The notes beneath the pieces were generated by a model. It was given only the letters and a program-made list of their open reading frames with translations. It had not been told where the DNA came from and did no database searches. From Mangrovibacillus cuniculi (GTDB lineage: Bacteria > Bacillota > Bacilli > Bacillales > R1DC41), in contig NZ_CP049742.1 in NCBI RefSeq assembly GCF_015482585.1, positions 2,573,001-2,637,000 on the forward strand: DNA of 64,000 nucleotides. Reading direction: 5' to 3'. Shown in pieces: positions 9,906-57,791 of this stretch. Within the stretch, counting starts at the first letter, position 1; each line of letters begins with the position of its first letter. The position numbers and the translations under genes are program-made.

Positions 9906-9940
9906 AAGACGAGGAGATGATCCTCGTCTTTACTTTTTGT
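9906..9940 (-). terminator. Bidirectional hairpin downstream of yebC
   Basis: AAGACGAGGA pairs with TCCTCGTCTT. On the minus strand it lies past the yebC stop; on the plus strand it is followed by TTTACTTTTT, which runs directly into the stem-loop repeat. Confidence 0.75.
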
Positions 9941-10002
9941 TACGTGACCGGTAACAACTCATCGTTAGCCACGTGATGTGGCTTGTTCTTAGATGAGTAT
10001 CC
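9937..10002 (-). repeat. Two-stem-loop terminator-associated repeat, copy 1
   Basis: In minus orientation: GGATACTCATC, then GCCACATCACGTGGC, CGATGAG and TTGTTAC..GTCACGTAACAA. Stem 1 closes CTCATC with GATGAG around the GCCAC/GTGGC hairpin; stem 2 closes TTGTTAC with GTAACAA. It abuts the yebC stop codon on one side and the terminator hairpin on the other. Confidence 0.8.
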
Positions 10003-10725
10003 TTATTCTTCACCTAGATCAACGTTATGATAGACTTGTTGCACATCATCTAAATCTTCTAATGCTGCGATCAGTTTATCAAACTGCGCTAAATCCGCTT
10101 CTGACACTTCCACTTCTGTCTGTGGCAGCATGGTAATCTCGGCAATGGAGAACTCTTCGACACCAGCTTCACGAATTGCTGATTGCGTGGCGTGAAGTTG
10201 GTCTGGCTCTGCATAAACGATGACGGAATCGTCTTCTTCTAACACGTCACGAGCATCAATATCCGCCTCTAGTAAAATTTCTAAAACTTCATCAGCTGAT
10301 TTTCCTTCGAAACCAATAACAGCTGTAGCATCAAACATATAAGAAACGGAACCAGATACACCCATATTTCCGCCATTTTTACCAAAAGCAGCACGAACTT
10401 CTGAAGCTGTACGGTTAACGTTGTTTGTCAGAGCATCTACGATAATCATAGAACCACTCGGTCCAAATCCTTCGTAACGAAGCTCATCAAAGTTTTCGTC
10501 TGCACCACTTTTTGCTTTATCGATGGCACGGTCGATAATATTACGAGGTACGTTATACGTTTTTGCTCTTTCAATTACCATGCGAAGCGATGTGTTTAGC
10601 TCTGGATCTGGCTCACCTTGTTTCGCTACTACATAGATTTCTTTTGCAAATTTATTATAGACCTTACTAGTATTAGCATCTTTTGCTGCTTTTTTTTCTT
10701 TAATATTGTTCCATTTACGTCCCAT
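10003..10725 (-). CDS. YebC family protein (YeeI/YebC2 type)
   Basis: A 240-residue protein beginning [20 protein letters not shown], the signature of the second YebC paralogue of Bacilli (YeeI in B. subtilis), with the typical central [13 protein letters not shown] segment and acidic third domain. YebC proteins were long annotated as transcriptional regulators; more recent work places YebC-type proteins at the ribosome, relieving stalling at proline-rich stretches. Cytoplasmic. SD GGAATTCC is poor but the start agrees with the family. Monocistronic, with a downstream terminator and stem-loop repeat immediately after the stop codon. Confidence 0.9.
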
Positions 10726-48151: not shown

Positions 48152-48277
48152 TTCAAATTCTCCTTCCATGGAAGTATATCTTTTAACAATGTCTATCACC
48201 TTACTCCTATACAAGAGAATTGTAAAACTATATGCTTCTAGAAAGTTTTTACACTATTACTATAATATTAGCTATAG

Positions 48278-48343
48278 GATACTCAGCTAAAAACAGATCA
48301 CATCACGTGGTCAACGCTGAGTTGTTACTAGTCACGTAACAAA
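48278..48343 (+). repeat. Two-stem-loop terminator-associated repeat, copy 3
   Basis: CTCAGC..GATCACATCACGTGGTC..GCTGAG then TTGTTAC..GTCACGTAACAAAAA. Both stems differ from copies 1 and 2 yet still pair (CTCAGC/GCTGAG; GATCAC/GTGGTC). It adjoins the terminator of the small RNA gene. Confidence 0.85.
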
Positions 48344-48463
48344 AATAAGCCCCTTACAAAAGTAAGGGGCTCTCCAAGTTTGCGGCGGTCATAAGCCACG
48401 CTCCACAACGTGTTCCTTAAAAAGGAGTGCTTATCCGTCTTATGCAAACGGGCTCATCGCATA
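48341..48463 (-). ncRNA. Unassigned structured small RNA or leader
   Basis: About 120 nt bounded by a consensus SigA promoter and a strong terminator (AGCCCCTTAC/GTAAGGGGCT then TTATTTTT). The RNA can fold into a long arm: GTTTGC with GCAAAC, CGG with CCG, ATAAGC with GCTTAT, and inner hairpins TCCTT/AAGGA and ACAC/GTGT. The 5' GAGCCC could compete for the terminator's GGGGCT arm, so it may be a leader for the nitroreductase operon ~190 nt downstream. I cannot match it to a known riboswitch, 6S, SRP or T-box. No reading frame of note. Confidence 0.7.
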
Positions 48464-48469
48464 AATGTA

Positions 48470-48498
48470 ATCATACTCTATCTAGCCAGTAAAGTCAA
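48470..48498 (-). promoter_or_regulatory. SigA promoter of the small RNA
   Basis: Minus strand TTGACT (48493-48498), 17 bp, TATGAT (48470-48475). Confidence 0.85.
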
Positions 48499-57641: not shown

Positions 57642-57730
57642 TATCCTTGAATTTTCCATCGATGAGCAAGTCACATTGACTCTGCTCTGTTCGAGTTTCC
57701 ACTTTAAAAGGTGGTAGACATTCAAGGATA
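57642..57730. repeat. 11-bp inverted repeat around a hairpin-rich segment
   Basis: TATCCTTGAAT (57642-57652) and ATTCAAGGATA (57720-57730) are perfect inverted copies; between them the minus strand can form GAGCA.AGTCA..TGACT.TGCTC. No target-site duplication is visible. Confidence 0.5.
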
Positions 57731-57791
57731 CTCAGTTAAGTTCAAGCCACATCACGTGGCTAACACTAGTTGTTACAGGTCACGTAACAAA
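57727..57791 (+). repeat. Two-stem-loop terminator-associated repeat, copy 4
   Basis: GGATACTCAGT..GCCACATCACGTGGC..ACTAG then TTGTTAC..GTCACGTAACAAAAA. Stem 1 is CTCAGT with ACTAG (one base lost). It abuts the T-box terminator. Confidence 0.8.

Follow-up and report, generated by a model that had tools for sequence, protein, structure and literature searches.

Mangrovibacillus cuniculi very probably makes BsrF, a small RNA encoded on the minus strand at 48341-48460 of the 64,000-nt stretch analysed here (the window). Judged by its sequence, the RNA would be transcribed as a stand-alone unit from a sigma-A-type promoter, measure about 115-120 nt, end at its own terminator and, presumably, act in trans. 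The family is a known one, and what sequence comparison adds is its extension to the M. cuniculi genome, in which a single copy is present. In a cmscan search of Rfam 15, positions 48349-48460 match RF01411 (BsrF) with 57.2 bits against a gathering score of 50 (E 7.5e-8), and the match covers the model from end to end (1-113 of 113). The window BsrF scores just 7 bits over the gathering threshold, and Planococcus-type homologues score similarly. Membership in the family is indicated by this full-model score, by the core GCGAUGAGC, UAAG, UGUGG and closing CG/CG pair together with covarying helices and, from the sequence, by a promoter and an intrinsic terminator of its own. The first-pass annotation, made from the letters of the DNA, had described a gene for a structured RNA, equipped with a promoter and a terminator, a description upheld by the fold and by 80 homologues; it had also called the RNA unassigned and fitting no riboswitch or housekeeping RNA, and had named an Rfam search as a possible refutation. 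That search returned BsrF above the curated threshold.

Transcription would be directed by a -35 hexamer TTGACT (48493..48498, minus strand, read 48498-48493), recognized by its motif and by hexamers at the same place in homologues, and a -10 hexamer TATGAT (48470..48475, minus strand, read 48475-48470), separated from it by a 17-nt spacer. The RNA opens with 5' GCG at 48460; the transcript probably starts 1-3 nt upstream of 48460 and ends in the T-run of an intrinsic terminator, GAGCCCCTTAC-TTTT-GTAAGGGGCTT followed by ATTTTT (48347..48372, minus strand), which is supported by folding and by homologues and whose hairpin (48372-48347) has an 11-bp stem, six G-C pairs and a 4-nt loop. The well-folding RNA is about 112 nt long (minus strand), and BsrF has a predicted folding energy of -45.5 kcal/mol versus -30.0 +/- 3.2 for shuffled sequences (z = -4.9), with 0 of 200 shuffles as stable. 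By count, neither promoter-like sites (5 observed versus 7.5 in shuffles) nor terminator-like sites (2 observed versus 2.0) exceed chance. The homologues settle the matter: because 80 relatives share the core with a sigma-A-type promoter in the same position, and those examined have a terminator-like hairpin of changing sequence, the promoter-RNA-terminator unit is confirmed, at the level of sequence, as real.

The homologue set (n = 80, with 77 distinct cores) spans Bacillales families, relatives of Planococcus and a further family of the class Bacilli; 30 of the 80 were found with the tail string in the search pattern and 50, the window copy included, by the covariance model. Of 61 genomes sampled from the order, 35 carry BsrF. 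In a class-level sample, 55 of 398 genomes have a match, 53 of them over the cut-off and other orders among them, and a pattern scan of named genomes added members from Planococcus, Planomicrobium, Jeotgalibacillus, Domibacillus, Halobacillus and Cytobacillus. Five pattern-scan members and three class members were tested, and these also lie above the gathering threshold. As to a mobile origin, the plasmids and phages searched gave no BsrF match; two pattern matches in IMG/VR are without the BsrF core and resemble coding sequence.

Nucleotides 1-9, GCGAUGAGC, are identical in 80/80 homologues, including all 50 found by the covariance model, and form part of a single-stranded 5' tail, GCGAUGAGCC (48451..48460, minus strand). 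All 80 likewise have the internal-loop element UAAG (48439..48442, minus strand), and the CG/CG pair is conserved across the homologues. Helix P1a joins its 5' arm UUGCA (48443..48447, minus strand) to CGCAA at 48380-48384, and the 3' arm CGCCGCAA (48380..48387, minus strand), delimited by homologue comparison and constrained folding, closes the three-way junction domain. When the CG/CG pair is imposed, nearly all members fold into this three-way junction and place UGUGG at the tip of helix P3, in an apical loop that in the window reads UGUGGA (48402..48407, minus strand). UGUGG is found in every homologue but one, L089 (448-555, genome G414), whose loop is UGUGA; the hexaloop UGUGGA is the Planococcus type and AUGUGG the Bacillaceae type.

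Covariation, which the first-pass annotation had suggested looking for in a homologue alignment, is seen in P3 and P1a. The helices were tested by anchored pairs because gaps in the raw MAFFT alignment led RNAalifold to a poor structure. At each P3 pair, 28-36 of 43 sequences have a canonical combination, drawn from 3-6 types, versus 7-22 when the pairing is shifted by one base; P1a stays paired where both partners have changed (UA to CG and GC to AU), and covariation support for P1b is weaker. Bacillales, the Planococcus group and the further family of the class Bacilli all have the same core, and an RNA so strictly conserved probably has a fixed partner; its comparative anatomy points to the tail, UAAG and UGUGG as the elements to mutate.

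The window RNA shares with B. subtilis BsrF/SR2 (RF01411) the 5' tail, UAAG, the UGUGG loop, the closing helix, a terminator of its own and a full-length match to the model. It differs in having a stronger TTGAC -35, a UGUGGA loop where B. subtilis has AUGUGG, C rather than U at tail position 10 and different neighbour genes (yobO-csaA in B. subtilis; PMC3574147). B. subtilis BsrF is reported to be activated by CodY and was recovered with Hfq (PMC3574147). The M. cuniculi genome has a CodY gene; the best CodY-box match upstream of the window BsrF carries 4 mismatches and is equalled in 30% of shuffles, and a scan for the CodY-box consensus upstream of the window copy and the homologues revealed no consistent enrichment over shuffles. 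Nearly all homologue promoters retain the 17-nt spacer, and their -35 elements are of two types: TTGAC(A/T/G) in the Planococcus group, Domibacillus and family f62, and a weaker TTGNNN in Bacillaceae (loci L028, L042, L044 and others). The two types may mark activator-independent and activator-dependent forms of BsrF, respectively; the weak Bacillaceae -35 would fit activator dependence.

Several other identities were considered and rejected. A PyrR binding site (RF00515) reaches 25.2 bits against a gathering score of 54 in cmscan, a chance match whose likeness to BsrF lies in the shape of the terminator hairpin and nothing else. ARAGORN detects no tRNA-like RNA in the window. A coding role is not borne out by the homologues, which, read by eye, have no conserved peptide: the AUG at RNA position 4 opens reading frames of varied length, many of them two codons long (AUG AGC UGA/UAA; also by eye).

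The anatomy of BsrF suggests how it could work. P1 and the three-way junction would together form a covarying scaffold from which two invariable single-stranded regions are displayed, namely the tail GCGAUGAGC and the UGUGG(A) loop at the apex; the conserved UAAG internal loop belongs to the same scaffold. Most likely, the tail and the loop would base-pair with a target, a protein would bind at the UAAG loop, or both; base pairing is the putative mode of action. No BsrF target is named in the literature searched.

Antisense repression of mRNAs is the usual mode for such small RNAs, and RoxS/RsaE and FsrA are stand-alone, trans-acting RNAs of Bacilli with conserved single-stranded segments. BsrF is like them in these two respects, but no sequence relation is seen, and RoxS/RsaE and FsrA have known targets. 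The chances are about even that BsrF is an ordinary trans-acting antisense RNA, which would use its 5' tail and loop to repress several mRNAs as RoxS or FsrA do. The tail is free, with 9 nt invariant, and BsrF is associated with Hfq in B. subtilis (PMC3574147), whereas no gene recurs with an exact 10-nt complement near its ribosome-binding site: across 61 genomes, occurrences of AGCUCAUCGC within 28 nt of GGAG are scattered, and genomes having BsrF show no excess of them over those that lack it.

Alternatively, BsrF may bind or sequester a protein, with the UAAG loop, the tail and the UGUGG loop making up the binding site. This possibility is a doubtful one: conservation of UAAG, UGUGG and the flanking CG pairs equals that of the tail and exceeds the needs of pairing alone, but no known protein motif is recognised in BsrF.

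A third reading offers BsrF one concrete candidate partner: 23S rRNA. The tail GCGAUGAGCC is the exact complement of GGCUCAUCGC in all six 23S copies, a site in the 5' strand of helix 90 (about E. coli 2508-2517); UCCACAU lies in the loop of helix 89 (H89). The window's P3 loop is complementary to UCCACA of this loop, and every base of either hexaloop type, AUGUGG or UGUGGA, can pair within UCCACAU. The tail and loop sites lie 33 nt apart in 23S, antiparallel, with the loop site upstream and the order matching. Exact complements of the tail occur at 11 sites in the M. cuniculi genome, namely the six 23S genes, the BsrF gene and four isolated positions, one of which is the sense strand (by eye) of a ParB-like coding sequence. 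With shuffled motifs, the chance is 0.8% for a tail match, 1.4e-4 when either loop hexamer is also required within 60 nt upstream and 1.7e-5 with the heptamer, as measured on 2383 unmasked rRNA bases; doubling for the masked half brings the hexamer value to near 3e-4. Among 300 shuffled tails, none matches the energy of the tail/rRNA duplex; cofolding with the rRNA segment gains -13.4 kcal/mol, which a single shuffled tail in 300 attains. An opportunity for such pairing exists in principle, since the 50S precursors of B. subtilis contain H89 and H90-92 in an immature state (PMC12560758).

BsrF could accordingly be pictured as pairing with 23S, tail to helix 90 and P3 loop to the helix 89 loop, before the A-site helices of pre-50S particles have folded, and as serving these particles as an RNA chaperone, a timer or a factor in quality control, but this is unlikely. 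Both invariant single-stranded elements find a complement in the right order, at a chance of about 1e-4, yet this is a post hoc figure for a match that was itself noticed post hoc. The rRNA segment does not vary, whether or not a genome carries BsrF, and covariation therefore cannot probe the pairing. Position 10 of the tail is U in 78 of 80 homologues, although C pairs better with the rRNA, and the UGUGA loop of L089 breaks the complementarity; a search of the L089 draft genome for its 23S sequence, sought for comparison, found none. Finally, the site is buried in mature ribosomes. As a pointer to the BsrF target, the sequence complementarity is a hint, suggestive only. The fuller proposal, in which BsrF would pair in trans with 23S H89/H90 through its tail and P3 loop and act on 50S assembly under nutrient control, chaperoning or timing the peptidyl-transferase region much as a snoRNA would, is quite improbable.

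The first-pass annotation had also linked the RNA to the genes that lie downstream, a nitroreductase (PF00881) and an ABM monooxygenase (PF03992), and had proposed that the 5' GAGCCC rivals the terminator stem for GGGGCT. This pairing exists in the window copy (-11.3 kcal/mol), but in this copy only, and it is weaker than the terminator hairpin (-19.2 kcal/mol); over the set, 5'-tail/terminator pairing averages -4.1 and goes no lower than -7.3 in any other homologue examined, versus a mean of -18.3 for terminators. A cis switch, in which GAGCCC would compete with the terminator to allow read-through into the nitroreductase operon, can be put aside as extremely improbable, given a pairing that is missing elsewhere and a downstream gene that is not conserved. 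The tie to the operon does not hold either: genes flanking BsrF vary between lineages, with no conserved context, and a copy of the Bacillaceae-1 repeat (RF01690; 48271..48340, plus strand; 29.8 bits, below the gathering score of 35), separate from BsrF, intervenes between the BsrF terminator and the nitroreductase gene. A metabolite riboswitch, an attenuator and a nitroreductase leader were rejected, as neither the downstream gene nor the alternative pairing is conserved. With no conserved switch pairing or neighbours, BsrF is therefore best viewed as a stand-alone RNA that does not control the nitroreductase operon.

Two further observations concern the surroundings of BsrF. In Planomicrobium, and likewise in two further genomes of the order to which the window belongs (L033, L046, L057; L014, L016), the gene directly downstream of BsrF encodes a Gfo/Idh/MocA oxidoreductase (about 50% identical). 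It was rejected as a neighbour shared with the window: the adjoining Gfo/Idh genes of five relatives have just 22-28% identity to the window's paralogue, which is divergent in orientation from BsrF. Bacillaceae-1 (RF01690) has the character of a dispersed repeat: the genome contains 40 matches at E<=0.1, 24 of them above the gathering score and some closely paired; its copies in the window are at 9939-10008 (minus strand), 48271-48340 (plus strand) and 57720-57788 (plus strand).
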